A stretch of DNA of 55,850 nt, taken from Pseudomonadota bacterium. Lineage in GTDB: Bacteria > Bdellovibrionota_C > UBA2361 > OMIW01. Positions 5,840-26,466 of this stretch are shown in pieces. Location of the stretch: positions 1 through 55,850 of the forward strand of contig OMIW01000129.1 of the NCBI GenBank assembly GCA_900299205.1. The letters are read 5' to 3'. The notes under the pieces were generated by a model. That model worked only from the letters and a program-made list of their open reading frames with translations. It searched no databases and was not told the origin of the DNA. The translations under genes were made by a program, and so were the position numbers. Positions within the stretch are counted from its first letter, which is position 1. Each line of letters opens with the position of its first letter.

Positions 5840-5852
5840 AGGGAGCCAATCC

Positions 5853-6251
5853 GTGAGATGCCCAAACCCGATGGAAAAATCACAGAAAGAGAAAGCATCA
5901 CTCGAAGGCCTTTCGAAATCCGTGAGAGCGCGCCTCGAACACCAAAACTTCTCTCCTATCCGGTGGGTCCACAAGGTCTATAAGGTGACTCTCTCTCCGC
6001 TCTTCGCCTGTTTTGGCGCCGAGTGTCGCTTTATCCCTGACTGCTCAAGTTATGCACTTGATGCGATAGAGTCTCGCGGATTCCTTCATGGAGGCATGCT
6101 CGCAGTGCGCCGTCTCTGTCGCTGCCATCCTTGGTGTGCAGGAGGGCACGATCCTGTGCCGAGAGAGGCTGTATCTGACATCCGGTTCGTCTCCCCAGAT
6201 ATACGTAACCAAGTCAACTCTTGCAGAGATCCATGCAAGATTTCGAGCTGA
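5853..6251 (+). CDS. yidD: Membrane protein insertion efficiency factor YidD
   Basis: YidD is a small amphipathic inner-membrane-associated protein that assists YidC/Sec insertion and is nearly always encoded between rnpA and yidC, as here. The core is clear: [15 protein letters not shown], then [15 protein letters not shown] with the conserved cysteines and tyrosine, then [15 protein letters not shown]. The GTG at 5853 gives 132 residues; an ATG at 5871 would remove six. Beyond the roughly 75-residue core there is a non-conserved N-terminal segment and about 25 extra C-terminal residues. Confidence 0.9.
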
Positions 6252-6352
6252 GGTAACTCCAGATTCCTACGAACACGCGATGAACTCGATCTGATTAGCA
6301 AAGCTTTTAACCTGTTGAGATAAATTCTCCTCCCTCCCTGCTGGAACAACTC

Positions 6353-8059
6353 ATGGAAGATAGACGCACCGCCTTCGCTATCGTGCTCAGCATCATTGTT
6401 GTCATGATGTACTCTCAAACGGTTCTTACACCACCACCGAGCACGCAACTTCCCCAACAACAATCTCCTTATCCGTCAGCAGGACAGGGGACCGTGGCGC
6501 AACCATCGGCCGGCCTTACCCCCACCACTCCTCCTGCTCCATCGATACAATCCGGCTCAACCCTCACGACGATTACCGCTGACCAGGTGGATGCGGCGGG
6601 GTCTGTGCGGGTCAGGACTCCTGTCATGGCGCTCGATATCTCTCTCCTGGGCGCACGACTTCGGAAACTGACCCTCTCTCGCTACGCAGAGACCCTCGGG
6701 AGTGAGAATGGGATAAATCTGGTTGAAGAGGAACCGAATCACCCCTTTCCGCTCGGTGTTTACACACATTCCGATGCTGACGGAGCAGTTCTGTACGCAG
6801 TCACCAGTCTCGCCGGAGTTCAGCAAACAGCCGATGGGTATCAGCTCGAAGCGAACGAGGGGACAATTACCTTCACGGGAACGCATCCAAATTGGGGAAC
6901 GGTCAGTAAAACCTTTCGCGTAAACAACGATGGATACCTCATCGGGATAGATGTGACTATCACCAATCGAGCAACCGTTCCCCTCTCACTGGAATGGAGC
7001 CACTACATCCCCACCGATCCCGCCCGTGTCCGTAGCGATCCGTGGAATGTAACTCTGCTTGATACAAAAGGTTCAATTTCTCACCTCGCTCCGGACAAGG
7101 TCGCTCTTGGGATAACCGACAAGGGAATCCTCCAGTGGGCCGCGCTGGGCGACCGATATTTTCAGACCGCCCTTATTTCAAAAAATCCCTCAACTCCGTT
7201 CGCTCTCGGCCGCGAGAGCAATACCATGACGGTCCGGAACTTTGGCACTCCAGAATCAGGGAGCTTTCTCCTCTACGCGGGACCAAAAGACCAACAAAAG
7301 TTGAAGGCGACTGGTTTTGATCTTCATCGAACGATAGATCTTGGCTTTTTCACCTTTCTCGCTGACCCACTCCTCCAACTCCTCAGATTTTTCCACTCCC
7401 TCCTCGACAACTACGGACTCGCCATCATTCTTCTGACCCTTGTCATCAAGTTAGTCTTGTATCCCCTTACTGCCGCGAGCTTCAAGTCGATGCAGAAGAT
7501 GCAAGAGGTTCAACCGGAGGTAGAAAAACTGCGGGCAAAATATAAAGATGCCACCGAGCTGAATCATGCAATGATGGAGCTTTACAAGAACAAGGGCGTT
7601 AATCCACTCGGAGGCTGCCTCCCGATGTTCGCCCAGATTCCGGTATTTCTTGGCCTTTACAACGCGCTCCTTCAGTCGATAGAGCTCCGTCACCAACCAT
7701 TTGCGTTTTGGATCACGGATCTTTCATCCCCTGAAAAACTAATCCTCTTTGGTATCCCAATCCCCCTCATGATAGTGATTATGGGCGCGACGATGATCTG
7801 GCAACAGTGGACCACCCCCTCGTCGATGGACCCACAACAAAAAAAGATCATGATGATGATGCCGGTTATTTTTACCGGGATGTTTATTATTTTCCCAATG
7901 CCGGCGGGGCTCGTGCTGTATTGGCTTATAAATAACATCACGAGCATTACTCAGCAGATTTATCTCAAGAACGCTCACGGCACTCATCCGATGATAGCGA
8001 CTCTCGTAACCAGCGTGGTTCTCTTCGTCTTGGGATTTGTGGCGGTTTTGGCCTCATAA
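6353..8059 (+). CDS. yidC: Membrane protein insertase YidC
   Basis: YidC (Oxa1 family) inserts and folds inner-membrane proteins, alone or with SecYEG. This 568-residue form has the Gram-negative layout. It starts with an N-terminal membrane anchor (about residues 7-25), then a P/Q/S/T-rich linker and a large periplasmic beta domain (about 75-330). The conserved helical core follows, with the hydrophilic-groove region, SMQKMQEVQPE and the NPLGGCLPMFAQIPVF motif, then the final membrane helices. It sits between yidD and mnmE in the conserved order; mnmE starts 10 nt after its stop. Confidence 0.95.
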   Translation: MEDRRTAFAIVLSIIVVMMYSQTVLTPPPSTQLPQQQSPYPSAGQGTVAQPSAGLTPTTPPAPSIQSGSTLTTITADQVDAAGSVRVRTPVMALDISLLGARLRKLTLSRYAETLGSENGINLVEEEPNHPFPLGVYTHSDADGAVLYAVTSLAGVQQTADGYQLEANEGTITFTGTHPNWGTVSKTFRVNNDGYLIGIDVTITNRATVPLSLEWSHYIPTDPARVRSDPWNVTLLDTKGSISHLAPDKVALGITDKGILQWAALGDRYFQTALISKNPSTPFALGRESNTMTVRNFGTPESGSFLLYAGPKDQQKLKATGFDLHRTIDLGFFTFLADPLLQLLRFFHSLLDNYGLAIILLTLVIKLVLYPLTAASFKSMQKMQEVQPEVEKLRAKYKDATELNHAMMELYKNKGVNPLGGCLPMFAQIPVFLGLYNALLQSIELRHQPFAFWITDLSSPEKLILFGIPIPLMIVIMGATMIWQQWTTPSSMDPQQKKIMMMMPVIFTGMFIIFPMPAGLVLYWLINNITSITQQIYLKNAHGTHPMIATLVTSVVLFVLGFVAVLAS

Positions 8060-8069
8060 GAAGACTTTT

Positions 8070-9458
8070 ATGGCGCAAAGGCACACAACTACCATTGCAG
8101 CATGCGCCACTCCCGCAGCACCTGGGGGGGTAGCAGTCGTTCGTATCAGCGGTCCCGATAGCCGCTCAGCGCTTGCCACGATTTTTCGCTCTACGAAGGA
8201 CCCAGTATCTCATCCTCGGTCGGTGGTGTTCGGTGATGTGATAGATTTTGCGACAAAGGAGATTCTCGATCGCGCGCTCGTTTTTTTCATGCCGGGACCT
8301 GCCAGCTTTACCGGGGAAGATGTTGCAGAAATTCAATGCCACGGAAGTCCTTTACTCGTCCGAAAGATACTTCGTTCGCTCTACGCATTCGGCATTCTTC
8401 CGGCCAACCCGGGTGAGTTCACCAAGCGAGCGTTTCTCAACGGGAAGCTCGATCTTGTTCAGGCGGAGGCCATCGCCGATCTTATCGCGGCATCGACGGA
8501 GCAAGCTCTGAAACTCGCAGCCGAGCAGCTGAACGGACGGCTCAGTAGCGCGATCTCTGAGGTAGGTTCGCCCCTGAGAGATTCACTCGCTGAACTTGAG
8601 GCGTCAATCGATTTTCCAGAGGAAGATATTAATCCCGCCTCTCAAAGCAGAATAATAGCGGCGGTCGAACAGACGACGAAAAAAGTAGAAACTCTTATAA
8701 ACTCCTATGCGTATGGGCAAGTCGTTCGAGAAGGTTTTAGGGTGCTTCTCGCAGGCCCACCAAATGCCGGGAAATCCAGCCTTCTCAATCTATTCGTTGG
8801 ACATCAGCGAGCAATAGTGACCCATATTTCCGGGACCACTCGTGACCTGCTCGAGGAGGAGGTCACTCTTGACGGGCTTCGATTTATTTTTTGCGACTCT
8901 GCTGGATTGCGTGAAACAACCGATACTGTTGAACAGGTGGGAATTGAACTCGCAAAGAATCGAGTGCCGTGGGCCGACCTTGTGCTGTTCGTAATTGATG
9001 GGGGTGATACGGGGGCTGAATGGCAGCTTGCAGTGAACCACCTTCGCGGTCTTGCCCGGCGAGTATGGCTAGTTGTCAATAAGGTTGATATTGCGCCAAA
9101 TGCCTTTTCGACGATCGCAATAGAGCCGACCCTGTTCAGCCAACGATTTTTTCTATCTGCAAAAACTGAGAGTGGCTTCTCTGCGCTTCAGGAGGCGCTT
9201 GTAGAGGAGGTAAAAACAACAAGCCTCGAAGCCTCAGCAGGCAACACAACTATCACGAACGAAAGACATCGTCTCGCTCTCATAAGTGCTCGAGATGCCC
9301 TGGGGCGCGCCGTTGCAGGACACCTAGGCGGTCAACCAACGGAGATACTCGCCCTCGAGCTTCGTCATGCCCTCGCAAATCTTGATGAAATTGTAGGCAA
9401 GACTTCTACCGAGGATATTCTTGGGAGAATATTCTCGAAATTTTGTATAGGAAAATAG
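8070..9458 (+). CDS. mnmE: tRNA modification GTPase MnmE
   Basis: MnmE with MnmG installs the 5-carboxymethylaminomethyl group on wobble U34 of several tRNAs. The 462-residue protein has the N-terminal formyl-THF-binding domain (start TTIAACATPAAPGG), a helical domain and an inserted G domain with GPPNAGKSS (G1), GTTRD (G2/K-loop side), DSAGLRET (G3) and NKVD (G4). It ends in the catalytic FCIGK tail. The ATG at 8070 was chosen because the conserved N-terminus begins at once; an upstream in-frame start at 8037 would overlap yidC. Confidence 0.95.
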   Translation: MAQRHTTTIAACATPAAPGGVAVVRISGPDSRSALATIFRSTKDPVSHPRSVVFGDVIDFATKEILDRALVFFMPGPASFTGEDVAEIQCHGSPLLVRKILRSLYAFGILPANPGEFTKRAFLNGKLDLVQAEAIADLIAASTEQALKLAAEQLNGRLSSAISEVGSPLRDSLAELEASIDFPEEDINPASQSRIIAAVEQTTKKVETLINSYAYGQVVREGFRVLLAGPPNAGKSSLLNLFVGHQRAIVTHISGTTRDLLEEEVTLDGLRFIFCDSAGLRETTDTVEQVGIELAKNRVPWADLVLFVIDGGDTGAEWQLAVNHLRGLARRVWLVVNKVDIAPNAFSTIAIEPTLFSQRFFLSAKTESGFSALQEALVEEVKTTSLEASAGNTTITNERHRLALISARDALGRAVAGHLGGQPTEILALELRHALANLDEIVGKTSTEDILGRIFSKFCIGK

Positions 9459-9527
9459 TACCGAGCCTGATAGGAATTGGGGGACAGCCCTGTCAAGTGA
9501 GAGTTTCATCGACAAAGATGGCTGGCC

Positions 9528-10787
9528 TTGTCTTCGACTAGTCCCATTCCAAAAATGATGCTCTATCCAAAGCTCAGAAACCCGCTCGATATAACCATCC
9601 ATACTGAGGGAACGGACCCACATCTGGAGTCCTATCTGGTATTTCGATGCCCCCTTGGGCTTGTACGGCCATCTGTCCTTGTCTCTGCGGTCGGACCCGT
9701 GATTTCTCGGTTTACAGGGGAACATTCGATAGATGAGATAGCCGCGGCCCTCAGCCATCTTGGCGCAACTCGCCAGCTTATCTCCGACGTTGTTCGTCTC
9801 TGCGATGATAATCTACTTCTTGATTCGCCCCGTTTTCAGGAACAGCTTCAATCAACGCTCGAAGCGTTTCGGAACAATCCCGTCCGTCCGCCGGCCCATG
9901 CTGGTGTGACATACCCTAACGAAAAGGTTCAGCTTGAACACCTTATCGCCTCTTACCTCAACCCCCATAAGGGAACGTCTACGTCTCCGCTGATCGGGCT
10001 AATGGTTCCTCACATCGATTTTAGTCGAGGTGGTCGAACATATGGAATCGGTTATTCCGCCCTCCGGTCGACCCACCCCGATGTGATTATTCTTCTTGGT
10101 ACCGCCCATCAGGCATCTCGCCACCTCTTTCATCTCTCCACGAAAGATTTTGCCCTCCCATTTCGGACCTTTGTGAATGACTCGGAGTCGACGAACTTAT
10201 TGGCAAATCACTACGGAAGAGCTCGTAGCTTCGAGGATGAGTTCCTTCATAAGCACGAACACTCTCTCGAACTACAACTACCATTCCTTAACTCGAGTGT
10301 CGGAACATCGGCTAAGATAGTTCCCATCCTCATCGGTAGCTTTCATTCCTTTATACTCGGAGGAAGATATCCCGACGAATCCGAACCCTATCAGAGTTTT
10401 ATCGGAGCTTTGGAAGAAATGTGTCGCTCAATACTTCGCCGGGGCGAGTCATTTCTCCTCCTTGCGGGGGTAGACATGGCTCACTGCGGTATGGCATTCG
10501 GCGAAAAATCTGCGCTTACCGCACAGGATCTCGAAAACATCGAGCAACGTGACACCCAATATCTTTCCCATTTAGAGCGGCGTGATCCTCGAGCAGTCTT
10601 CGAACACATCGCCGAGGACGGTGATGCACGTCGTATCTGCGGATTTCCGACGATGTACTTGATGCTCGATCTCCTCAATATTCTTCAACCCTCTGGAACG
10701 CCTTGCATTCTGGACTACCAGCAAGCAGTCGATCCGAAAACGGACACCTGTGTCACCTTTGGAGCAGCATCATTTCCTCTCGCGTAG
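9528..10787 (+). CDS. Memo-family protein (AmmeMemoRadiSam system protein B-like) with N-terminal extension
   Basis: The C-terminal two-thirds is a Memo domain, a fold related to extradiol/DODA-type dioxygenases. It shows PHIDFSRGG, LLGTAHQ, KHEHSLELQLPFL and a late DMAHCG block, whose histidines and acids could bind metal. About 110 residues precede it and resemble a small helical PqqD-like module (YLVFRCPLG ... IDEIAAAL). In many genomes Memo genes neighbour AMMECR1 and a radical-SAM gene; neither is here, so only the family can be given. The best start is the TTG at 9528. An ATG at 9555-9560 is possible, and the SD signal is weak for all. Confidence 0.8.
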   Translation: MSSTSPIPKMMLYPKLRNPLDITIHTEGTDPHLESYLVFRCPLGLVRPSVLVSAVGPVISRFTGEHSIDEIAAALSHLGATRQLISDVVRLCDDNLLLDSPRFQEQLQSTLEAFRNNPVRPPAHAGVTYPNEKVQLEHLIASYLNPHKGTSTSPLIGLMVPHIDFSRGGRTYGIGYSALRSTHPDVIILLGTAHQASRHLFHLSTKDFALPFRTFVNDSESTNLLANHYGRARSFEDEFLHKHEHSLELQLPFLNSSVGTSAKIVPILIGSFHSFILGGRYPDESEPYQSFIGALEEMCRSILRRGESFLLLAGVDMAHCGMAFGEKSALTAQDLENIEQRDTQYLSHLERRDPRAVFEHIAEDGDARRICGFPTMYLMLDLLNILQPSGTPCILDYQQAVDPKTDTCVTFGAASFPLA

Positions 10788-10853
10788 GCAAAATACCTAG
10801 AAAATTTTGCGATCAGATTAAACTCAGTACATTCAGCAACTTAAGAAGCTAGA

Positions 10854-10878
10854 ATGAGGATTTGTAAAATCTCCTCAT
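10854..10878 (+). terminator. Imperfect hairpin downstream of the Memo gene
   Basis: ATGAGGATTT (10854-10863) can pair with AAATC(TC)CTCAT (10867-10878) across a 3-nt loop, with a 2-nt bulge. No T-run follows at once; T7 appears only 22 nt later. It could end the Memo transcript or structure the next leader. Confidence 0.3.
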
Positions 10879-10915
10879 CCTCCACACGAAAAAGGAACAT
10901 TTTTTTGCTGAACAC

Positions 10916-10944
10916 TTGAACCAATCGCCTTGTTGGGCTAGATA
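10916..10944 (+). promoter_or_regulatory. Candidate sigma-70 promoter for the 10986 gene
   Basis: TTGAAC at 10916-10921 and TAGATA at 10939-10944 are separated by exactly 17 nt. They lie about 42 nt before the start codon of the next gene, in a gap of about 200 nt. This is one of the best promoter matches in the window. Confidence 0.55.
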
Positions 10945-10985
10945 AGTGTTTGTAACCGCGTTCTTTTGGCTTGGAGGCAGTACAG

Positions 10986-11303
10986 ATGGAAGGAACCGCT
11001 CAAAACTTTTTTGAACAGCACGGGCTTGAGGTTACCTCGGGAGAGGTTGAGATTGGGAAGACTTATCCAATCTATGGGATGATAACAAACGTCATCTCTG
11101 ATGAGCCCGGGAAGGTGCTTGTTGAAATCAATTTCCACATCCAGGCGTCGATGGCTATCCCTGAGGCCGACAAAGTGACTCTCATAAAGGAAAGGGCGTT
11201 TGAACCTGGAATATTCGTGTCAACGATCCTCGAAAAAGAGGGCACACTCAAAGTTAGATGTTCAACGGTAGTTTTCGGCAAAAGAACTGGGTTCGATGCC
11301 TAA
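10986..11303 (+). CDS. Small conserved-looking cytosolic protein of unknown function
   Basis: I do not recognise this 105-residue protein. It is acidic to neutral, has no signal peptide or membrane segment, and alternates short hydrophobic strands (VEIGKTYPIYGMI, KVLVEINFHI, GIFVSTILE, TLKVRCSTVVFG), suggesting an all-beta fold. The ATG at 10986 is supported by GGAGG 8 nt upstream. A good promoter sits just before the gene and a strong hairpin just after it, so it looks like a single-gene transcription unit. Function cannot be inferred from context. Confidence 0.65.
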   Translation: MEGTAQNFFEQHGLEVTSGEVEIGKTYPIYGMITNVISDEPGKVLVEINFHIQASMAIPEADKVTLIKERAFEPGIFVSTILEKEGTLKVRCSTVVFGKRTGFDA

Positions 11304-11356
11304 ATTGAATAATGGCGCGACGAGAGACAGTCGGTTACAAGCGGTCATATCCAAAG

Positions 11357-11393
11357 GGGGTCATCAGGTACAACGCGGGTACCAGATGACCCC
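11357..11393 (+). terminator. Strong hairpin, probable terminator of the 10986 gene
   Basis: GGGGTCATC (11357-11365) pairs perfectly with GATGACCCC (11385-11393). An inner GGTAC/GTACC arm could extend it, giving a long stem. It is followed by TTCGAATTTTG, a weak T-rich tail. It also blocks any reading of the short ORF across it as a gene. Confidence 0.45.
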
Positions 11394-11586
11394 TTCGAAT
11401 TTTGAAAAAACTCCCCTCACTGATAATTCCAACAGCCTGACCTCACTTTTCGGCTCAGCCACTTCTCTGATAGAGTGACCTCTGCCCTTGTTTAGCCGGA
11501 ACGGCACCGTCCTCCAGGCAGATTGAGGGATCTTTTCTCGGGTGAGGAACCCCTTTCAGCATTATCCCTCCATCTAAAGGCCCCCC

Positions 11587-12240
11587 ATGGTCGATCAGAC
11601 CGCACCCCCCGCGTCGCAGACTGTATCCGCTGTCGAGCATTCTCTCGCTCACGAGCTGTGGTCGTTCGTAAAGTCCCTGCTCCTTATACTCATTCTCGCC
11701 GTTGTTATAAGAGGAGTTGCTCTCGAGGCTTTCTACATACCCTCGAGTTCAATGGAACCGACTCTCCAGGTTCGAGACCGCATTTTCGTTTCAAAGTTTT
11801 GGTACGGTTTCCGCATACCCTTCAAGCGTACAACCCTCATTCCCGTTCGCAATCCTCGGAGACGCGATGTCGTCGTTTTCTATCGCGCTGATGACCCGCA
11901 AACCCTAGAAAACGAGGCAAAAGATGCCATTATTAAGCGTGTGATTGGACTCCCCGGAGATGTTGTTGAGGTGCGGGGAACCTCCGTTATTGTGAACGGA
12001 GAGACATTGGTCGAGCCTTACGCGAGGTGGGCAGAAGGGGGGAGGATTCCAGGAGGTGACTTTGGACCTCAGACCGTACCTGAAGGAAGGATATTCTTGC
12101 TCGGAGACAACAGGGATCACTCCAAAGATTCACGATTCTGGCAAGATTCTCATTTTTTACCCGTAGAAAATGTAGTGGGGAGAGCGTTTATCATCTTCTG
12201 GTCGACGTTCGATTTCTGGCGCATCGGTAATCTTCTGTGA
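11587..12240 (+). CDS. lepB: Signal peptidase I
   Basis: Signal peptidase I removes signal peptides from exported proteins at the outer face of the inner membrane, using a Ser/Lys dyad. Visible parts are one N-terminal membrane segment (about 28-48), box B PSSSMEPTL with catalytic Ser55, box C RRDVVVF, box D KRVIGLPGD with Lys117 as the general base, and box E GDNRDHSKDSR. The 217-residue length is normal for a single-anchor enzyme. The leader is C-rich with only a weak AAAGG before the ATG. manA follows 38-44 nt later, apparently by chance. Confidence 0.95.
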   Translation: MVDQTAPPASQTVSAVEHSLAHELWSFVKSLLLILILAVVIRGVALEAFYIPSSSMEPTLQVRDRIFVSKFWYGFRIPFKRTTLIPVRNPRRRDVVVFYRADDPQTLENEAKDAIIKRVIGLPGDVVEVRGTSVIVNGETLVEPYARWAEGGRIPGGDFGPQTVPEGRIFLLGDNRDHSKDSRFWQDSHFLPVENVVGRAFIIFWSTFDFWRIGNLL

Positions 12241-12284
12241 GCCAGCCGATTTTGGCATTTCTTGTCTTTCGTATTTGAGTGACT

Positions 12285-13559
12285 ATGCTTGGCCCCATTC
12301 GTCTCATCCCCACCGTTCAGAACTATTCTTGGGGTAAACGCGGGGTGGAATCTGCGCTTGCCCCTCTTCTTGCCTCCGTATCCCCCGAGCATCCGTACGC
12401 AGAGCTTTGGGTAGGCGCTCATTCGAGTGGAACAGCAAGTCTTGACTCGACGACAGGACTATCCCAACTTTCCGATCAAAAAAACCTACCTGTATCCCTT
12501 CCCTCTAATCTCAGATCACTAATCGAAAACGAGCCCCTCTTGTGCCTCGGAGAGAAAATCAGGCGCACCTATGGGGAACTCCCGTTCATGCTCAAAGTTC
12601 TTTCAGTCGCCGAACCTCTCTCGATTCAGGCACACCCCAATCGCGTGCTCGGTGCGGAACTGCACCAAAAAGATCCCACTCATTACCCCGATCGCAATCA
12701 TAAACCTGAGATGGGGATAGCCCTTACTCCCGTTCATCTTCTGTGTGGATTTAAGGGGCGCGACGAGATTGTCGCGACTCTTCGACGTCATCCGACTCTG
12801 TGGTCGTTGCTCCCTCAAGAGGTGGTGTCTCAGTGCGAGGGCGACATTGCCTCAGTATCCGAAGATGAACTGAGGCGTGCTACATACCGCTCGTTCCTGA
12901 CGGCCCCCTCTATCGAGAGAGCCCGAGCGGCCGATGATATCCTCCGTACCATCATTGACCAAGGGCCCGTCGGAACCTTTGAGTCCCTTATTCCAAATCT
13001 GATTAATAGGTACGGTGAAGATGATATCGGAATAATATCCGGACTTATTCTGAATGAAATAATTATCGAGCCCGGGAAAGCTCTCTTCATCGGGCCCAAC
13101 ATTCCCCATGCCTATCTTTGGGGAGACCTGATCGAATGTATGGCGGCATCCGATAATGTGGTTCGCGCTGGACTTACGCGCAAATATCAAGATATTGAGA
13201 CACTTCTGTTCATGCTCGACTACGGAGCAGGGAGACCACAAATTATTGAGCCTTACCGATTGAATGATGACTCCGCGACAGCCTTCTATCCCGCTCCTGT
13301 CGATGAGTTTTTCGTTTCTGTTTCCTCCACAGCCAACCGACCCACCTCCCATCAAACAGATGGAAGTCCCGAGATCCTCCTAATTCTTGCGGGTAAAGCA
13401 GAGGTAAAAACCTCTGATACCGGGCTTGTTGATTTGGGTCCAGGGAATGGGCTTTTCGTACCCGCAGCGGTGAGTCGCTACGAAATATTCCCCCACGAAT
13501 GCACCTTTGTGCGAGTTTCAATTCCCTATGCGAACGGCACGCGGAGCTATGCTGATTGA
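12285..13559 (+). CDS. manA: Mannose-6-phosphate isomerase, type I
   Basis: This zinc enzyme interconverts fructose-6-phosphate and mannose-6-phosphate, feeding mannose-containing polysaccharides and, with the PMM/PGM downstream, GDP-mannose synthesis. The N-terminal VQNYSWGKRG, zinc-site QAHPN and NHKPEMGIAL blocks, and the late PNIPHAYLWGDLIECMA and AGLTRKY blocks are all typical of type I enzymes. At 424 residues it is full length. The ATG at 12285 was preferred; a GTG two codons earlier (12279) is possible. Neither has a clear SD. Confidence 0.93.
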   Translation: MLGPIRLIPTVQNYSWGKRGVESALAPLLASVSPEHPYAELWVGAHSSGTASLDSTTGLSQLSDQKNLPVSLPSNLRSLIENEPLLCLGEKIRRTYGELPFMLKVLSVAEPLSIQAHPNRVLGAELHQKDPTHYPDRNHKPEMGIALTPVHLLCGFKGRDEIVATLRRHPTLWSLLPQEVVSQCEGDIASVSEDELRRATYRSFLTAPSIERARAADDILRTIIDQGPVGTFESLIPNLINRYGEDDIGIISGLILNEIIIEPGKALFIGPNIPHAYLWGDLIECMAASDNVVRAGLTRKYQDIETLLFMLDYGAGRPQIIEPYRLNDDSATAFYPAPVDEFFVSVSSTANRPTSHQTDGSPEILLILAGKAEVKTSDTGLVDLGPGNGLFVPAAVSRYEIFPHECTFVRVSIPYANGTRSYAD

Positions 13560-15173: not shown

Positions 15174-16598
15174 TCAGGGAAGATCTGGATAGTGAGGCGC
15201 CCCCTCAGAAGCCAACTTCCCTTTAATTTCCTCTATCGCCTCCACCATCAGTCGGTGGTACTCTTCAAGGCTCTCCTGCGTCTTTGCTTCAAACCGAAGC
15301 ACAAGAACCGGCTGTGTATTCGATGCCCGCACAAGCCCCCACCCATCAGGGAATCTTACCCGTGCTCCATCGGTGGTATCGACCGGATACTCCGCGAAGG
15401 CTCTCTTCGCCTCCTCGGCGATCCTAAACTTGATATCATCGGGACAATCAACTCGGATTTCGGGGGTCGATTTCATCGGTGGGATGTCACTGAGTATCGC
15501 TGATACGGGACCGCTCCAGTTACTCACCACTTCACAAAACCGTGCACTCGCGTACAGAGCATCATCAAACCCGAAGTAACGATGCTTGAAGAAGATGTGC
15601 CCACTCATCTCCCCCGCAAGATCCGCCCCTTCCTCCTTGAGCTTTGCCTTTACGAGGGAATGACCCGTCTTCCACATAATCGGACGGGCACCCCGAAGGG
15701 CAAGATCTTCAAAGAGTATTGAAGAGCATTTGACATCACCGATAACCGTCACTCCGGGCTTTTCCCCTAGGAGGGCGCGGGCGAAGATGAGGAGGAGCAT
15801 ATCACCATATATCGGCACCCCCCGTTCATCGACCACCCCGATCCTATCTGCGTCGCCATCCCAACCGATACCAAAGTCAGCTCCCTCCGTGACAACCCGC
15901 GCTGCGAGGGTCTCGATATTTTTCAATTCGGTCGGATCGGGGTGATGATTCGGAAATCTCCCGTCTGGTTCACAGAACAGTTCGATAACCTCAACCCCCA
16001 AACCTCGCAGAAGCGCAGGACCAACCAATCCCCCAACACCATTTCCGGCATCAACCACAACCCGCAGAGGACGGACCCCCATCACTGATTTGCTATTGTT
16101 TATCAGCATCTCGGTGTATCGATCACGCATCGGGAGTGATGAAATGGAGCCCCGAGATATGATCGCATCTTCACCACGCTGCTCGGCTCCCTGTTCCTCA
16201 ATGACCCGCTGATAGAGCTCTTGTATCCCTTTTCCAGAAAGAGTCTCCTTACCGAGACAGAGCTTAAAGCCATTCATATCTGCCGGGTTATGACTGCCCG
16301 TAACCTGAATTCCACCGCCAAGTTCTTCCGCGAATATCGCATAATAAAGCTGCGGGGTAGGTCCCATACCAGTCATCACAACATCGACCCCATGGACAGC
16401 GATCCCTCGAGCAAGATTATTCGCGTAATCTTCCGAGCTCAGACGACAGTCCCACCCGATCCCAATCCGATTTTTCCCGAGACTCCGCGCAAGAGCGCCA
16501 TATCCCCTGCCGAGAAGGTACGCAAACTCGGGAGTTAACCCCTCACCGACAACACCACGAATATCGTTTTCCCGAAATACTCCCCGATCTACCTTCAT
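15174..16598 (-). CDS. Phosphomannomutase/phosphoglucomutase
   Basis: This alpha-D-phosphohexomutase interconverts 6- and 1-phosphates of mannose and glucose through a phosphoserine. The 474-residue protein shows the phosphoserine loop TGSHNP (100-105, Ser102), the metal loop DGDADR (247-252), the sugar-specificity loop GEMSGH and the phosphate-binding RASNTQP. It resembles AlgC/ManB-type bifunctional enzymes. I chose the ATG at 16598 because AGGA precedes it at good spacing and the conserved domain begins there; the frame stays open upstream for 38 more codons. It ends only 9 nt from malQ, on the opposite strand. Confidence 0.92.
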   Translation of the reverse strand: MKVDRGVFRENDIRGVVGEGLTPEFAYLLGRGYGALARSLGKNRIGIGWDCRLSSEDYANNLARGIAVHGVDVVMTGMGPTPQLYYAIFAEELGGGIQVTGSHNPADMNGFKLCLGKETLSGKGIQELYQRVIEEQGAEQRGEDAIISRGSISSLPMRDRYTEMLINNSKSVMGVRPLRVVVDAGNGVGGLVGPALLRGLGVEVIELFCEPDGRFPNHHPDPTELKNIETLAARVVTEGADFGIGWDGDADRIGVVDERGVPIYGDMLLLIFARALLGEKPGVTVIGDVKCSSILFEDLALRGARPIMWKTGHSLVKAKLKEEGADLAGEMSGHIFFKHRYFGFDDALYASARFCEVVSNWSGPVSAILSDIPPMKSTPEIRVDCPDDIKFRIAEEAKRAFAEYPVDTTDGARVRFPDGWGLVRASNTQPVLVLRFEAKTQESLEEYHRLMVEAIEEIKGKLASEGAPHYPDLP

Positions 16599-16744
16599 GA
16601 TTCGTCCTAAGATAAGCGCAAAAATCTGCTCATATGCGCGCCTGCGCGGTCTCGGCGACAGTTTTCGACCGTCACCTGACTCACCGTATCTCGATACCGT
16701 CCCGCGAGTCAAAGGCTCAGACAGACCGCCGAATCGCCCTGAAA

Positions 16745-16778: not shown

Positions 16779-17801
16779 CTAAAATTTTCTGTCGACAGAG
16801 TGTTTCTTCATGATTTCTTCGGAAAAAAAACCTGCCATTCGCTCCTGCATTCGCTGCTGCTCGATAATCGCTCGGACCTCTTCACGCCGGTCATGACTGA
16901 CACCTTCAGTGTCGCTCTCGCCAGCTAAATGACCCCGATCCTCCTCGTCCTCTGATTCCCCATCAGCACGTTCGTTCACCCTAAAGATACGAATTCCATC
17001 TCCAATTCGAACTGGTTTCGACACCTCGCTCTCATCAAGCCCATCTATGGCTTTAAGGATGTCATCACTGAGATCGGACTCCGCCACCATACCCGAGGAT
17101 TCGGTCACCGTTACTCCACGAAAGTCGGGGGCAATTTCCTCAAAATCCTCATCATCGTCGAGTCTTTCCGATATTTCCTCGAGCAACTTCTCAAGTTCAT
17201 CCGATGAGCGCCCCTCGGTGGGTATCACGAGGTGCCCGAGATCCACAGAGCCTGAGGCGAGCTTGTTGCGAGCCTGTCCTCCCCCCACGGCAAGCCGATG
17301 CTCACCCAGATATTCGGCAATGTCGGTATCAGAAACCGAAACAGATCCTCGAAGAACCGAGCTGGCCAACTTTGACTTCAGAATATCGAGCTCGACCTCT
17401 TTTCGGTAATCATCAAATCTCTTTCCGCCCTTTTCAACCATCCCCCTTACTTCCTCAACAGATATATCGTTTCGGGAGGCAACTTCTCTTATGTAACTTT
17501 CGACCTCATCCCCTGTGACTGAAAGATGTCGAGCCTCAGATTCAAGTCTCACAACCTGTTCCTCAATGAGGAAATCAAGTGCGCTTTTTACATCCGAATC
17601 TGTTTTTACGGCGGCCAATGAAATAGGACGACCAGCCTTTCTACTTACATCGCGGAGGGTAATGGGCTGCCCATCAACACTCGCCACTATTGAATCAATG
17701 ACAACTTGCTCCTTCCCCTTACCCTCCGCATAAGCGAGCTCTGCTCCCATCAAAGAGAGTCCGAGAATTCTTACGAAGAGACAGACGACCTTTTTCATCA
17801 T
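16779..17801 (-). CDS. SurA-like periplasmic chaperone/peptidyl-prolyl isomerase
   Basis: The 340-residue protein starts with a signal peptide (MMKK plus a hydrophobic core ending near AYA). It then has a SurA N-terminal helical domain (DSIVASVDGQPITLRDV; the next helices include LDFLIEEQVVRLE) and one shortened parvulin-like region (about 190-290). An acidic tail rich in E/D follows. SurA proteins chaperone outer-membrane proteins in the periplasm. The parvulin segment lacks several usual histidines, so PPIase activity is uncertain. It begins 22 nt after the mfd stop and is probably co-transcribed. The frame stays open into mfd, but the signal peptide fixes the start. Confidence 0.8.
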   Translation of the reverse strand: MMKKVVCLFVRILGLSLMGAELAYAEGKGKEQVVIDSIVASVDGQPITLRDVSRKAGRPISLAAVKTDSDVKSALDFLIEEQVVRLESEARHLSVTGDEVESYIREVASRNDISVEEVRGMVEKGGKRFDDYRKEVELDILKSKLASSVLRGSVSVSDTDIAEYLGEHRLAVGGGQARNKLASGSVDLGHLVIPTEGRSSDELEKLLEEISERLDDDEDFEEIAPDFRGVTVTESSGMVAESDLSDDILKAIDGLDESEVSKPVRIGDGIRIFRVNERADGESEDEEDRGHLAGESDTEGVSHDRREEVRAIIEQQRMQERMAGFFSEEIMKKHSVDRKF

Positions 17802-17823
17802 GCATCCCCAATCTTGAATACTT

Positions 17824-20800
17824 TTATGACTGCCGATTATCAACCATCGATTTTGATGGTTTAGCCTCTGCCTCAACACTTCCGACGGCAACAGACTTGT
17901 GTCGAATCCCCTCCAGAAGGGACTCCGTAGTTTTATACAATACACTCATCGGGAGATTCTCAGAGCTGAGTTGTACCCACAAGGTGAGATTTCTCCCCAG
18001 ACGATAGGTCCGAGGCTTTGACTCCGCAAGATCGAGCAGAGCTGTGAGGTCAATGGGCGACCGCTGGGTCAACCACAATGCAAGCCGAGTCCCTGCTACC
18101 TCTGCCTTCGCGATAGCGAATCTTCGACACAGCCCCCGATACCTCATGATCTCGACAAGATGACACACCTCGTCAGATGGACAACCGAATCGGTCAGAAA
18201 GCTCTGCTAGGATATCATCTGCTTCGCTCGATTCTTCCACCATCGCAAGCCGCTGGTACATCAGAAGCCGCTCGGAAATATCGGGAATATATGGCTCTGG
18301 AATGCACGCATCGAGTGGTATTTTAACCTCGGGATCAATGCTCTCCTGGCCACCCTCAGGATCACCTTTGAGCTGAGCGACCGCCTCCCTCAATAGGTCG
18401 GTAAACATCTCGAAACCGACCGTATCAATCTTGCCTGACTGTTCTTTACCAAGGAGATTACCTGCTCCTCGCAATTCCAAGTCTCGCATTGCCAGAACAA
18501 AGCCTCCTCCCAGGCCCTCAAAAGACTGCAGTACCTGAAGCCGCTCTCGAGCCTGAGGCGGTAGCTTGCCACGTTGAGGCACAAGAAAGTAGGCATACGC
18601 CTGCCGAGCTCCACGGCCAACCCGTCCGCGAATCTGATAGAGTTGAGCCAAGCCGTACAAATGGGCATTATCAACAATAATCGTATTTGCGTTCGGGACA
18701 TCGAGCCCCGACTCAATAATGGTCGTCGTCACCAGGATATCAATCTGTCCCTCAAGGAACTTCTGCATTACGCGCTCGAGGACACTCTCCTGCATCTGCC
18801 CGTGAGCATGAAAAACTCTCGCCTTAGGAAAAAGTTCTTGAAGAAGCTTCGCCCGATTGCTGAGTGTCTCCACCCGATTATGGAGGAAAAAAACTTGCCC
18901 ACCCCGATTTAGTTCTCTATCTATCGCATCGCGGACCACCCCAGAATCATCATGAGCAACACAGGTTCGAATGGGTCGGCGGTCAACCGGTGGGGTTCGG
19001 AGGACGCTGACATCTCGTGCCCCGATCATCGCGAGATGTAGGGTACGAGGAATCGGGGTCGCGGTCATGGTCAGCGTATCCACTCCTGAAGCAACCTGGC
19101 GTAGCCGTTCCTTCTGCCGAACACCAAACCGCTGTTCCTCGTCAATCACGAGAAGGCCTAAATCATGAAAATGGATATCAGGCTCGAGCAGTCGATGGGT
19201 ACCAATTATGATGTCGATTTTTCCTGATGCGAGATCCTCGACGGTCTTCCTGTTTTGCGAATCGGAGTAAAAACGGCTCACCGCCCCGATAACAGCGGGA
19301 TATCCCAAGAAACGCTCCTCGAACGAGCGCCTATGTTGTTCGACAAGAATCGTTGTTGGGACCAGCACGGCCGTCTGTTTTGCATGCTGAAAGGATTTAA
19401 AGGCTGCCCGAATTGCCACTTCGGTTTTCCCGAATCCGACATCACCACAGATCAGCCGATCCATCGCTTTGTCGCTCGCCATATCATTCAGGGTCTCTCG
19501 AATCGCCTCTGATTGGTCGGGAGTTTCATCATAAGGAAATCCATCCGCGAACCTTTCATCCTCGGCTCCGATAAAATCAAAGTGCCAACCACGCTGAACG
19601 GTGCGTGTCGCGTACAATCTCAAAAGGTCGCCTGCCAGACTGATAGTAGCCTCACGAGCCTTTTGACGCGCCCTGAACCAACGCTTTGATCCGAGACGAT
19701 CGAGCTTCGGTCTGTGACCATCAGCACCAAGAAACCGCTGCACCTTTCCGATAAGCTGAATCGGAACAAAAAGGCGGCTGTCGGCATACTCTATCGCGAG
19801 AAAGTCCTCCACATGTCCCTCAACACTCCGCTGTTGAAGCCCTCGGTAAATACCAATTCCATAATCTCGATGCACTATGAAGTCATCCACCTGCAACTCA
19901 CGGAGTGAATGCATTATTCGACGATGTGAGACCGCCTTCATCTTTCGGCGACGCACCGACCTGTCGTGAAATATCTCATGCTCGCCAATTACTATCAGAC
20001 GCTCGTCGGGCATCTGTACACCCTCCGAGATAGTACCCTCCATAATTGCGATGACTGGGCCAGTCTCATCCCTGAGAAAATCTCTGAGGGGCCGGTGATC
20101 CACTAATGCTGTTACCTTCACAGTGGCAAGGATTGAGCTTAATCGTTCGGCTCTCGCGAGGGAGCCAACGACAAAAACTATCCGATATTTCTTCCGCTGC
20201 CATACTTGTACCGCTTTTTTGAGGGGGTTGAGTGCATTACCACTTCCGGCACTAGACTTAAGAGCGAGCTCGAGCTCGGTATTTCTCTCGGTTCTGTATA
20301 CTTTGCGTTCGATATCGTCTGCTCCGCGAACTGCCATGCCATTAAGATCCGCGAAGAATCCCCTCCGAAACCGACGACGGAGCTCCTCCGGCGATAGGTA
20401 CTGGTGGATTAGACGAGGGTGCAAAACTTTCTCGGACATCAGGAACTGAGTTCGCTCCTCTAACTTTTCCCAAAAAATATCCAGCGACTGCTCGCACCCT
20501 AATCTATCGTCAAAAAGAATGGGGGTATCTGGTCCAAGATAATCAGTGATCGTGACCATATCTTGATAAAAGAGTGATTGAAGAGATTCCATACCGGGAA
20601 AGGAGAGGTCCTCCCGAACAATATCCTCAAACTCACGAACAACCTTGCTTGGTAAATGAAGTTCACCACCCCGCTCTCGAATACGGGAGAGAATCAGCTC
20701 GGTATCAATCTGAGCATTAAGCGGTGCCACCCATTCAGAGACGGGGAGAATCTCAATCTGCGTAACATCTGAGATAGTCCTTTGCGTCTGAGGATCAAAA

Positions 20801-21360
20801 AGTCTTAAATTTACGACTTTGTCATTCTCAACGTACACCCGAGCAGGGTATTGCTCTGATGGAGAGAATATATCAATTACGAGGCCCCTGGTCGCATAGT
20901 CACCCACCGACTCGACAAGACTGGTTGGACGATAGCCTGCCCGTGCGACAAATTTCTCAAAATCCTCTCGTTCGAGATTTTCACCAACAGAGACTCGGCG
21001 GTACAGAGGCAGCAATCGCTCTGGTGGGTGAACGAGCTGGGCCACGACCTCAACACTTGCGACCCAAATTGTTCCCCGACCCTGCGCTGCCCCCAATAGC
21101 AACCCGAGCCGACTTGCCATGAGCTCCCGCTCCGGAGATACCCGCTCAAAGGGAAGGAGCTGCCAGGAGGGGAAGAGGCGCGCCCTATCTCCCCCGACAA
21201 AGAACTTTAACTCGTCGGCAAATTGCTCTGCCCGGCTATAATCAGGGCATACAACCAATGCAGACTGTTGATCGCTGAGATTCTGCGCAACCCACCAAGC
21301 TCGCGCTGGCCCTTGAAGCCCAAGACAACAGATCGGTTTTGTACTCACTCCTTCTCCCAC
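17824..21360 (-). CDS. mfd: Transcription-repair coupling factor
   Basis: Mfd displaces RNA polymerase stalled at DNA lesions and recruits UvrA for nucleotide excision repair. The 1178-residue protein has the UvrB-like N-terminal domains, the RNA-polymerase-interacting domain (DFIVHRDYGIGIYRG) and RecG-like translocase domains. These carry GDVGFGKTEVA (Walker A), DEEQRFG (motif II), TATPIPRTL (motif III), and the later VGRGARQAYAYFL region with the TRG relay. The C-terminal D7 domain (ISERLLMYQRL) follows. The start codon is a GTG with purine-rich sequence just upstream. It is divergent from pilT across about 200 nt. Confidence 0.96.
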   Translation of the reverse strand: MGEGVSTKPICCLGLQGPARAWWVAQNLSDQQSALVVCPDYSRAEQFADELKFFVGGDRARLFPSWQLLPFERVSPERELMASRLGLLLGAAQGRGTIWVASVEVVAQLVHPPERLLPLYRRVSVGENLEREDFEKFVARAGYRPTSLVESVGDYATRGLVIDIFSPSEQYPARVYVENDKVVNLRLFDPQTQRTISDVTQIEILPVSEWVAPLNAQIDTELILSRIRERGGELHLPSKVVREFEDIVREDLSFPGMESLQSLFYQDMVTITDYLGPDTPILFDDRLGCEQSLDIFWEKLEERTQFLMSEKVLHPRLIHQYLSPEELRRRFRRGFFADLNGMAVRGADDIERKVYRTERNTELELALKSSAGSGNALNPLKKAVQVWQRKKYRIVFVVGSLARAERLSSILATVKVTALVDHRPLRDFLRDETGPVIAIMEGTISEGVQMPDERLIVIGEHEIFHDRSVRRRKMKAVSHRRIMHSLRELQVDDFIVHRDYGIGIYRGLQQRSVEGHVEDFLAIEYADSRLFVPIQLIGKVQRFLGADGHRPKLDRLGSKRWFRARQKAREATISLAGDLLRLYATRTVQRGWHFDFIGAEDERFADGFPYDETPDQSEAIRETLNDMASDKAMDRLICGDVGFGKTEVAIRAAFKSFQHAKQTAVLVPTTILVEQHRRSFEERFLGYPAVIGAVSRFYSDSQNRKTVEDLASGKIDIIIGTHRLLEPDIHFHDLGLLVIDEEQRFGVRQKERLRQVASGVDTLTMTATPIPRTLHLAMIGARDVSVLRTPPVDRRPIRTCVAHDDSGVVRDAIDRELNRGGQVFFLHNRVETLSNRAKLLQELFPKARVFHAHGQMQESVLERVMQKFLEGQIDILVTTTIIESGLDVPNANTIIVDNAHLYGLAQLYQIRGRVGRGARQAYAYFLVPQRGKLPPQARERLQVLQSFEGLGGGFVLAMRDLELRGAGNLLGKEQSGKIDTVGFEMFTDLLREAVAQLKGDPEGGQESIDPEVKIPLDACIPEPYIPDISERLLMYQRLAMVEESSEADDILAELSDRFGCPSDEVCHLVEIMRYRGLCRRFAIAKAEVAGTRLALWLTQRSPIDLTALLDLAESKPRTYRLGRNLTLWVQLSSENLPMSVLYKTTESLLEGIRHKSVAVGSVEAEAKPSKSMVDNRQS

Positions 21361-23823: not shown

Positions 23824-24423
23824 TTAAACTAGGACACCCGTTGTGAATGCTCCGTCGCTCTGGAGCAGAGTCTGGAAGCATTTGAGATGCCATTGAAAGG
23901 AGTCCTTCGCCGCCAATGTTAGCCGTGAAACATCGGCGGGAGCGACCATCTCCTCGCACATTGAGCAAAAGTCAGACCATTCAGCCTTAGTGCGACGGCC
24001 ACTTCCAGAGAAGTACGAGTACCCCATTCCATTGCTAAATTTAAAGTGCTTCTCGAGGTGGCCCGATAAATAGATACCTCCCAGACGGGACCCCTCAGAT
24101 ACATACAACATTCCAATCCATGCTAATTCAGTACTCAGTGACGGGGGTGGTGGTACAATCGGAACGGAAAGAGACACAACTCCTAATGAAGAGAGGTACT
24201 CTCGATCCTTATCGAGTGCCGGCGTCCGCCGACGCATGTCAGCAAATGTACGAAGGCGTTCTGATGGGCATTCAGGGATACTTTCCTCAACTCTTGTATG
24301 CATAACACTGAGTAACTCAAGAATAGTTCGGTATTGGCTCAGATTCAGATCTTTGCGCATAAGCGGAAATACTCTCTCGGTGTCTAGATGCAACGACTGT
24401 GTCTCTCGCCGCAACGTCATCAT
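23824..24423 (-). CDS. Biliverdin-producing heme oxygenase, BphO type
   Basis: Heme oxygenases open heme to biliverdin, CO and iron. The N-terminal MMTLRRETQSLHLDTE contains the likely proximal heme ligand (His12 from the start used), and the later WIGMLYVSEGSRLGG block is typical of the bacterial BphO branch, usually linked to bacteriophytochromes. Length is about 199 residues. The start was set at ATG 24423, with AAGGGG upstream; the frame remains open to a TTG at 24477. No phytochrome gene is present, so chromophore supply is not supported by context; iron release from heme is the other option. It diverges from the UvrA-like gene. Confidence 0.8.
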   Translation of the reverse strand: MMTLRRETQSLHLDTERVFPLMRKDLNLSQYRTILELLSVMHTRVEESIPECPSERLRTFADMRRRTPALDKDREYLSSLGVVSLSVPIVPPPPSLSTELAWIGMLYVSEGSRLGGIYLSGHLEKHFKFSNGMGYSYFSGSGRRTKAEWSDFCSMCEEMVAPADVSRLTLAAKDSFQWHLKCFQTLLQSDGAFTTGVLV

Positions 24424-24558
24424 TACCCCTTCGCCATCCTTTTCCTCGAACACTCGCCCCTCCGTGATTAATTTCAAGAGCTGATATCGATTGTCAACTT
24501 TTCAATCGGCTTGTACCCTTACTAACGTCACCCTCATAAAAAAGGCTCTGAATTCCCC

Positions 24559-26466
24559 GTGAAATTATCTCTCCGTCAGCCCGACCCGACAATCATCTCC
24601 TTCTGTACTCCAGCGGGCAAGCAAGGGGTTATTAGCATCCCACGGCATGGGCTCATCGCATTGCCGATATCACCCCTTACCCGAAGTATTTTTCGCTCCA
24701 TCGTCGCTGAGACCCGATCAAGAGCGGAGCTTGATGCTGAATCATTCGTCCTTCGGAGAACAGGAAGCATTCTCTCCTCTGCCCCTCCTCCGTCAATTGT
24801 GATCAGTCTGCACGGCTTCTCTCAAGCACGGCAATCCCTCGCTGAGATGCTCAACCTCCTCGATTTCTTGACAGAGCAAGGACGCCTCCAAGGAGCACGC
24901 TGTCCAGATTGTGATCTAAAAGCTGAGGCAACATCGTCCGACAACCTTGCTGACGTAGTTTTAAATATTGTCCAGGGAACGCCCGCGATTATCTCAATCT
25001 CACCGAGCCTTTCACCAGATGAATTTTGCCGAATCTTTTCCCACCTGATCGTTGACGATCACCGATGGGATGTATTCGATATCCCCAACGGTTTGCTAGC
25101 CGCTGCCCGTTCAGTTTCCGGCATTATATTTCAGGGCTTAATGACTGAGGATAAAATTCCTCTTCTTAGAAACCTGATATCGAAACACAGCCAGCTATTA
25201 GCGGCCCCTATTGAGATTCGACAAACTAACGAGCCTTACACACTTTCACGATTTTTGGGGATTTTGCCCACCTGCCCCTCATGTGGCCGCTCCACTCCGC
25301 CGATTTCGTCTTCCTCTATTCTCGACACCCTTCATTCAACAAACGAAACAGCGCTTAATCAACCACTTTCATGGTATCCAAGCATTCAACATTTTCTGCA
25401 TAATCCCCCATCGTCAATACCCAAGACATCGCTACCCCCATCTATTGCGGATCGGATTGGTAGTTTCCCAGTAGGTTCCTCGCTGACAACTCGGGTGGCT
25501 GATATGCCCCTCGAAGAACGGTTGGCCCTTCGATTCCAAACCACTCCGCATCTTGCCGAGGGGCTACTCCTCATTGAACTTCCGTCCTATGGCCTGACCG
25601 AAACCCAAGCTCTATCGCTTCAGGAGTGGATTACCCATCAGAAGGAATACTATCTTGGTGTCATTACGCTCGGAGGTTCGGAGGTGCTTTCGACAATAGC
25701 CGATGCCGGACCGAATATGACAATCCTTGAGGAACAGCCGCAACGAGCCCACCCTGCACCTCGTCGCCCTCCACCCGCTCCAACTCTGCCAACTACTCCT
25801 CCGAATAAGGCGACTGAACTCGACCTTGCGCATTACCTTTGCGACCGGCAACCATCTCGAAATCCTTTTCTCTGCGCACTCCCTCTCTTCAAACGGTTGA
25901 CAGCCCTTTACGCGAAACTAACCGCGGCCAAGGTTCTGGGTATATCCTCTAGTTGTCTCTCGCTCTTTGGACAACGCTCACTGCGCTGCGATGAGTGTGG
26001 AGGCCAAGGACGGGCAGAGTCCAAAACTATTCTTCTCCCCTGCAATATCTGCCTCGGCTCAAGATATCAATCATCCGTAAATCAACTTGTTTATCGAGGA
26101 CTTCCTTTCACCGCACTCTTTAATCATTCCGCAGATTCGCTTTTGCCAATATTTGAGAACATCCTTCCTGTTCAGCACGATCTCACGGCTCTTTCATTAG
26201 CAGGCTTGGGAGGAATTGCCTTGGGAACGAGCGAAGATACGATGACGATTGAAGACCGTTGTCGATTTGCCCTCATGGTATGCCTCAGTAATCAAAAAGG
26301 GGGAAGAATCTCGATTCGTGGGATGGCAGGGATTTTTTCGGATGAAGAGCGAACCTCCCTTGAGCTATGCTTTCAATGGTTCGCCCAAAGGGGGGGGGTA
26401 TCTTTAACGGTGGATGGGGTGTTAACCGACTTATCCACTGGTCGCGGTGCCTGTCTTTTCGGATGA
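24559..26466 (+). CDS. Degenerate UvrA-like protein lacking ATPase motifs
   Basis: This 635-residue protein follows the plan of UvrA (about 940 residues), the damage-sensing ABC ATPase of excision repair, at low identity. Retained are CPDC (115-118) and CPSC (239-242), matching the first zinc module, and CDECGGQGR (477-485) with LPCNICLGSRY (493-503), matching the last. Also kept are RQPSRNPF (430-437, as in the NPAT linker) and FENILPV with LAGLGGIALG (548-556). Lost are Walker A in module 1 (PISPLTRSI at 36-44 in its place) and the whole second Walker A region, replaced by a Pro-rich linker (394-416). The LSGGE signature reads MTIED and Walker B reads LLLIELPSYGL (336-345). The frame is intact, so it is probably a functional non-ATPase. 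The start is a GTG without SD. A G9 tract (26390-26398) lies near the 3' end. Confidence 0.7.
   Translation: MKLSLRQPDPTIISFCTPAGKQGVISIPRHGLIALPISPLTRSIFRSIVAETRSRAELDAESFVLRRTGSILSSAPPPSIVISLHGFSQARQSLAEMLNLLDFLTEQGRLQGARCPDCDLKAEATSSDNLADVVLNIVQGTPAIISISPSLSPDEFCRIFSHLIVDDHRWDVFDIPNGLLAAARSVSGIIFQGLMTEDKIPLLRNLISKHSQLLAAPIEIRQTNEPYTLSRFLGILPTCPSCGRSTPPISSSSILDTLHSTNETALNQPLSWYPSIQHFLHNPPSSIPKTSLPPSIADRIGSFPVGSSLTTRVADMPLEERLALRFQTTPHLAEGLLLIELPSYGLTETQALSLQEWITHQKEYYLGVITLGGSEVLSTIADAGPNMTILEEQPQRAHPAPRRPPPAPTLPTTPPNKATELDLAHYLCDRQPSRNPFLCALPLFKRLTALYAKLTAAKVLGISSSCLSLFGQRSLRCDECGGQGRAESKTILLPCNICLGSRYQSSVNQLVYRGLPFTALFNHSADSLLPIFENILPVQHDLTALSLAGLGGIALGTSEDTMTIEDRCRFALMVCLSNQKGGRISIRGMAGIFSDEERTSLELCFQWFAQRGGVSLTVDGVLTDLSTGRGACLFG

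Follow-up and report, generated by a model that had tools for sequence, protein, structure and literature searches.

A UvrA paralogue near mfd that lacks its ATPase motifs and keeps two zinc modules, possibly one subunit of a non-catalytic UvrA-like pair

The window analysed here, i.e., the whole stretch of 55,850 nucleotides of contig OMIW01000129.1 (assembly GCA_900299205.1, positions 1 to 55,850 of the forward strand; GTDB lineage Bdellovibrionota_C, UBA2361, OMIW01), harbors a UvrA-like gene without ATPase motifs, which we term alpha. It starts with GTG and runs in one open frame of 635 aa; on re-reading, this agreed with the initial annotation, which had reported a single frame of 635 instead of ca. 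940 aa. The gene, its parts and the neighbors relevant to it are as follows.

15174..16712, minus strand: phosphomannomutase/phosphoglucomutase (PMM; Pfam PGM_PMM I-IV)
16779..17945, minus strand: SurA/PpiC-type chaperone (Pfam Rotamase and SurA_N)
17824..21360, minus strand: Mfd, first gene of the mfd-surA-PMM cluster, which in relatives includes alpha
24559..26466, plus strand: alpha, UvrA paralogue without ATPase motifs, 635 aa (translation, NCBIfam, phmmer, AlphaFold/Foldseek, tree)
24664..24690, plus strand: Walker A site of NBD-I, reading PISPLTRSI, no P-loop (alignment)
24901..24912, plus strand: CPDC, residues 115-118, first half of Zn1 (invariant in ten alphas of a single genus and the window protein)
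24934..25260, plus strand: predicted UvrB/Mfd-binding domain, residues ~126-234 (maps to E. coli UvrA 131-248; Foldseek)
25273..25284, plus strand: CPSC, residues 239-242, second half of Zn1 (cysteines conserved)
25672..25806, plus strand: low-confidence, partly Pro-rich linker at the NBD-II Walker A site, residues 372-416 (pLDDT <50; K646 replaced by P)
25843..26310, plus strand: signature domain II region with Zn3, residues 429-584 (phmmer to 3pih; pLDDT mostly >90)
25987..25998, plus strand: CDEC, residues 477-480, Zn3 (cysteines conserved)
26041..26052, plus strand: CNIC, residues 495-498, Zn3 (cysteines conserved)
26242..26256, plus strand: MTIED at the LSGGE site of signature 2 (alignment)

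In 19 genomes alpha lies directly after PMM, i.e., in genetic linkage with mfd, but in the window it is found ~8 kb from PMM, beyond mfd and pilTU. Mfd had been placed about 3 kb upstream of alpha; the distance is right (the mfd start is 3.2 kb off), but the two genes are on opposite strands and divergent, and do not form one operon. A heme-oxygenase-like ORF (217 aa, named by eye; 23824-24477, minus strand) is divergent from alpha; in relatives, no such ORF was seen at this locus. Near the 3' end of alpha, a run of nine G (window ~26388-26399) is a possible spot of slippage or assembly error; downstream of it the frame still aligns with relatives.

Alpha is homologous to UvrA far beyond chance. 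The NCBIfam UvrA model (TIGR00630) matches residues 439-583 at 2.8e-13 (49 bits, below the family cut-off of 729.8 bits) and phmmer aligns residues 429-584 with Thermotoga maritima UvrA (PDB 3pih) at 2.2e-14, both matches spanning the last zinc module and signature domain II, while Pfam gave no significant match. The UvrA likeness proposed by the initial annotation, with a structure search as its check, is also borne out by the AlphaFold model (mean pLDDT 75.8, pTM 0.64): all 38 Foldseek matches at E<=0.001 are UvrA chains (best 1.8e-20), aligned across residues 7-633, and VIA-align Z-scores are 14.8-19.3 for UvrA vs 13.0 for the first other ABC protein, bearing in mind that the AlphaFold input alignments held intact UvrA-like rows that may have drawn the models towards UvrA.

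Residues of the window protein, of other alphas and of a second eroded paralogue introduced below as beta were mapped on E. coli UvrA numbering, with residue roles taken from PMC3025350, PMC6486640 and PMC7835731. In the window protein all six ATPase motifs (both Walker A, both signatures and both Walker B) are missing, and the earlier claim that both ATPase modules had been erased thus stands. K37 and E514 are replaced by L, K646 by P and position 857 reads R; signature 1 has become TRVADMPL and signature 2 TMTIEDRC. The strand-strand-helix of NBD-I is still predicted around PISPLTRSI. The four CxxC motifs are where they had first been noted, and both Zn1 (C115, C118, C239, C242) and Zn3 (C477, C480, C495, C498) are invariant in the ten single-genus alphas and the window protein, and predicted as zinc sites. 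UvrA has three zinc modules, so that the initial annotation, according to which all zinc pairs were kept, holds for Zn1 and Zn3 but not for Zn2, at whose columns the window protein has no residues at all. The insertion domain (E. coli 290-400) is reduced to ~8 residues and the Zn3 loop is shortened, the signature domain II and Zn3 region being the best conserved part of alpha.

Between the two halves of Zn1, the window protein is predicted to retain the fold of the UvrB/Mfd-binding domain: Foldseek aligns it with the isolated domain structures 4dfc (UvrA/TRCF core, TMt 0.67) and 3fpn (UvrA-UvrB domains, TMt 0.62), at weaker E-values than the UvrA chains. Given this predicted fold and an adjoining mfd in relatives, docking to Mfd or UvrB is possible; the tested interface residues R216 and E222, however, are both lost in the window protein (L and S). 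It had been proposed that alpha acts as a stand-alone decoy or regulator occupying UvrB or Mfd, which would require no beta. The retained domain and the linkage to mfd speak for such a role, as does R216, still an arginine in six of the ten single-genus alphas, but E222 is gone from all ten as well as from the window protein, and wherever both loci were seen, beta almost always accompanies alpha; we consider a decoy of this kind improbable. The domain fold behind that proposal is thus predicted to persist, but not the interface pair. The other suggestion, a new ATP-independent sensor of DNA damage, appears very improbable. In UvrA, Zn3 bears the hairpin that senses damaged DNA (PMC7835731), and alpha has kept this module. 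Nevertheless, the DNA-contact arginines 712, 722, 724 and 730 read T, K, L and C, i.e., three of four are lost, namely R712, R724 and R730 (PMC3025350), and R730 is an aspartate in most alphas and betas, which makes DNA sensing unlikely; the shortened Zn3 loop and the missing insertion domain point the same way.

Besides a tandem UvrA, relatives of the same class carry alpha as a UvrA-like gene of 590-900 aa behind mfd-surA-PMM. The ten alphas from a single genus share a mean mutual identity of 27%, and all ten lack both Walker A motifs while their frames are open and all eight cysteines are kept, as expected by the initial annotation for orthologues of a protein under selection at its structural zinc sites; the zinc cysteines make up 8 of the 21 invariant columns in the alignment of these ten and the window protein. 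For three pairs of single-genus alphas, pN was 0.34-0.46 against a pS of 0.73-0.80 (pN/pS was used rather than dN/dS proper owing to saturation of synonymous sites), and the PMM genes of the same pairs had a pN of 0.05-0.08, i.e., alpha evolves ~10 times faster than PMM. Given this rate and the absence of alpha and beta from several families, selection is not strong. Still, frames remain open over ~2 kb in ten species despite saturated synonymous divergence. Alpha is a fast-evolving but constrained protein, neither a one-off nor a simple pseudogene with a disrupted frame and no constraint.

Across the class, ATP sites and zinc modules are lost stepwise. In one family, the alpha locus is occupied by full UvrA paralogues (L083, L084, L108; 861-901 aa) in which neither Walker A nor any of the three zinc modules is missing, and these intact genes of ~900 aa are basal relatives. 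Another alpha (G005, 830 aa) has both ATP sites and no Zn2, three (G001, G038, G031) have only Walker A1, and the fully eroded forms (G034, the ten alphas of the single genus and the window protein; 595-635 aa) have neither Walker A. In several families the position of the locus, recognized by synteny, is without the gene. Two copies deviate from this series: the alpha of G007 (L086 6057-8132, minus strand) has kept Walker A motifs and wholly lost Zn3, the opposite of the window pattern, and in that of G011 (L078 6087-7991) an in-frame TAA leaves two pieces of 454 and 180 codons, each still with its CxxC pairs, which could reflect a broken gene, a sequencing error or a two-piece protein. Outside the class, a search of 337 genomes at E<=1e-45 returned no comparable protein. 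The alpha family has so far been found in one phylum, which is represented in this set by a single class.

The main rival to a selected function is slow decay, i.e., alpha as a relic of a redundant UvrA paralogue that erodes in parallel across the phylum under residual constraint on its fold and is now inessential. Such a history would produce a stepwise loss like the one seen here, which begins at 901 aa with two ATP sites and ends at 595-635 aa without any, as well as outright absence from several families, the stop in the G011 copy and the very fast evolution; moreover, the window protein has no close relative, and selection is known from the single-genus alphas. On the other hand, ten Walker-less genes open over ~2 kb with pN below pS at saturated synonymous sites, eight invariant cysteines, and the cysteines and frames that a second, independent paralogue has likewise kept in most of its copies speak against it, and we consider a relic rather unlikely. 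Orthologues with intact Walker motifs, which had been named in advance as the sign of a decaying pseudogene, do exist, but they are confined to distant lineages, and throughout one genus the Walker-less form has kept an open frame and its cysteines.

This second paralogue, beta, was recognized in four genomes (G001, G005, G007, G009), where another UvrA-like gene shares its own conserved locus, between a MoxR-TPR-transglutaminase-DUF58 cluster and a CDP-alcohol phosphatidyltransferase (TPR, transglutaminase and phosphatidyltransferase are Pfam matches; MoxR and DUF58 are what we take the remaining genes to be). Locus look-up then recovered beta in the genus-level group of the ten alphas as well as in the genome of the window itself (G000), where it was found by synteny first:

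L121 (G000:C141), 5843-8041, minus strand: beta, 733 aa

This copy has kept Zn1, has lost most of Zn3 and is without Walker A; it has no NCBIfam match, is weakly recognizable by the A1 profile (4e-8), and its low-confidence model still has UvrA as best match. Most beta copies retain cysteines and open frames. Alpha and beta occur together in 15 genomes, are both absent from nine and are discordant in two, namely G032 (alpha with both ATP sites intact) and G043 (partial alpha with Walker A1), which have no beta at the usual place. As independent changes number one pair on supported branches and three on the best tree, which is not significant, the link between the two genes is suggestive. That the window protein might itself be a beta was rejected, since beta has its own locus in this genome, and the cysteine pattern and tree position of the window protein are those of an alpha.

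The way in which alpha and beta have lost their motifs follows the architecture of the UvrA ATP sites, of which the proximal one is formed by ATP-binding I and signature II and the distal one by ATP-binding II and signature I (PMC6486640). Fisher tests on 36 family members, run without regard to shared ancestry, couple Walker A1 to signature 2 (p=1.4e-5) and Walker A2 to signature 1 (p=2.2e-5), but not the mismatched pairs (p=0.29 and 0.10). Proteins with a single Walker A have A1 if they are alphas (3/3) and A2 if they are betas (8/8; p=0.006). Partly eroded alphas thus hold Walker A1, together with signature 2 in two cases (the proximal site), and the less eroded betas Walker A2 and signature 1 (the distal site). 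Read most simply, the two copies would have shared out the two ATP sites before some lineages lost both. In its fuller form, in which UvrA split into a heteromer with alpha proximal and beta distal, and later lineages, including that of the window, became nucleotide-independent under selection, we put this proposal forward tentatively, as a possibility that falls short of even chances.

In the phylogeny, alpha, beta and the window protein make up a single clade (100/100), with canonical and tandem UvrA outside it. With all long branches in, the first tree gave the window protein no supported place inside this clade; with three very long branches left out, it joins the single-genus alphas at 87/91. 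Neither is it the sole UvrA of its genome, which also encodes:

L081 (G000:C40), 6785-12394, minus strand: tandem UvrA, 1870 aa, four intact Walker A

The same long form is present throughout the class and presumably performs nucleotide excision repair, and the tree rejects the window protein as one half of it. A look-up in the genome contigs yielded nothing but tandem UvrAs of the ordinary kind, apart from a spurious match within an aminotransferase (L025). UvrB is present in the genome; UvrC (RNase H domain), present in 41 of the 45 genomes of the class, was not found, which may reflect missing sequence as the assembly is ~90% complete.

How does this pair compare with known systems? With class I UvrA (~940 aa), alpha shares the fold, domain order, Zn1, Zn3, the position of the UvrB/Mfd-binding domain and signature domain II, but at 635 aa the window alpha lacks both composite ATP sites, Zn2 and the insertion domain, as well as the DNA-contact arginines and the UvrB-interface pair. 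Like UvrA2/class II UvrA (Deinococcus UvrA2, Ecm16), it is a shortened UvrA paralogue beside a canonical one. Class II proteins, however, are without the UvrB-binding domain and have kept their ATPase sites, and alpha is the reverse, the UvrB-binding domain being present in the alignment and the model. Tandem UvrA (PRK00635-like, ~1800 aa) likewise comprises two UvrA units and occurs in the same genomes (L081, L082, L109, L110), but has four intact Walker A motifs and branches as a separate clade. Asymmetric ABC pairs with a degenerate site (TAP, MRP1) also divide labor between two nucleotide sites; those are transporters, though, and each UvrA-like protein here once held both sites and eventually lost both. 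The searchable literature, outside which most subscription journals lie, turned up no description of a degenerate, inactive or paired UvrA, in line with the impression of the initial annotation that no such family had been described.

Taken together, we give about even chances to the window protein being an ATPase-dead subunit of UvrA fold that works with beta as a non-catalytic scaffold. On this account, alpha and beta would descend from an extra UvrA gene of the phylum, separate from the tandem UvrA, and would be in contact as a UvrA-like heteromer that initially shared catalysis between its two members and later lost it, leaving a zinc-stabilized, nucleotide-independent scaffold. With less weight, alpha might dock a partner via the UvrB/Mfd-binding domain held by Zn1, and could then regulate Mfd/UvrB-dependent repair or serve it as an adaptor, instead of scanning DNA.

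The two kinds of ATP site in UvrA have been dissected with point mutants. Here, one site seemingly was given to each paralogue and both were then removed, in a series of living intermediates. If true, this would show which parts of UvrA have an ATP-independent job and would offer a natural system to separate proximal-site from distal-site function, and the heteromer, if it exists, would be the first non-catalytic UvrA complex. Should the alpha-beta pair act on Mfd or UvrB, it would constitute a new layer of control on transcription-coupled repair.
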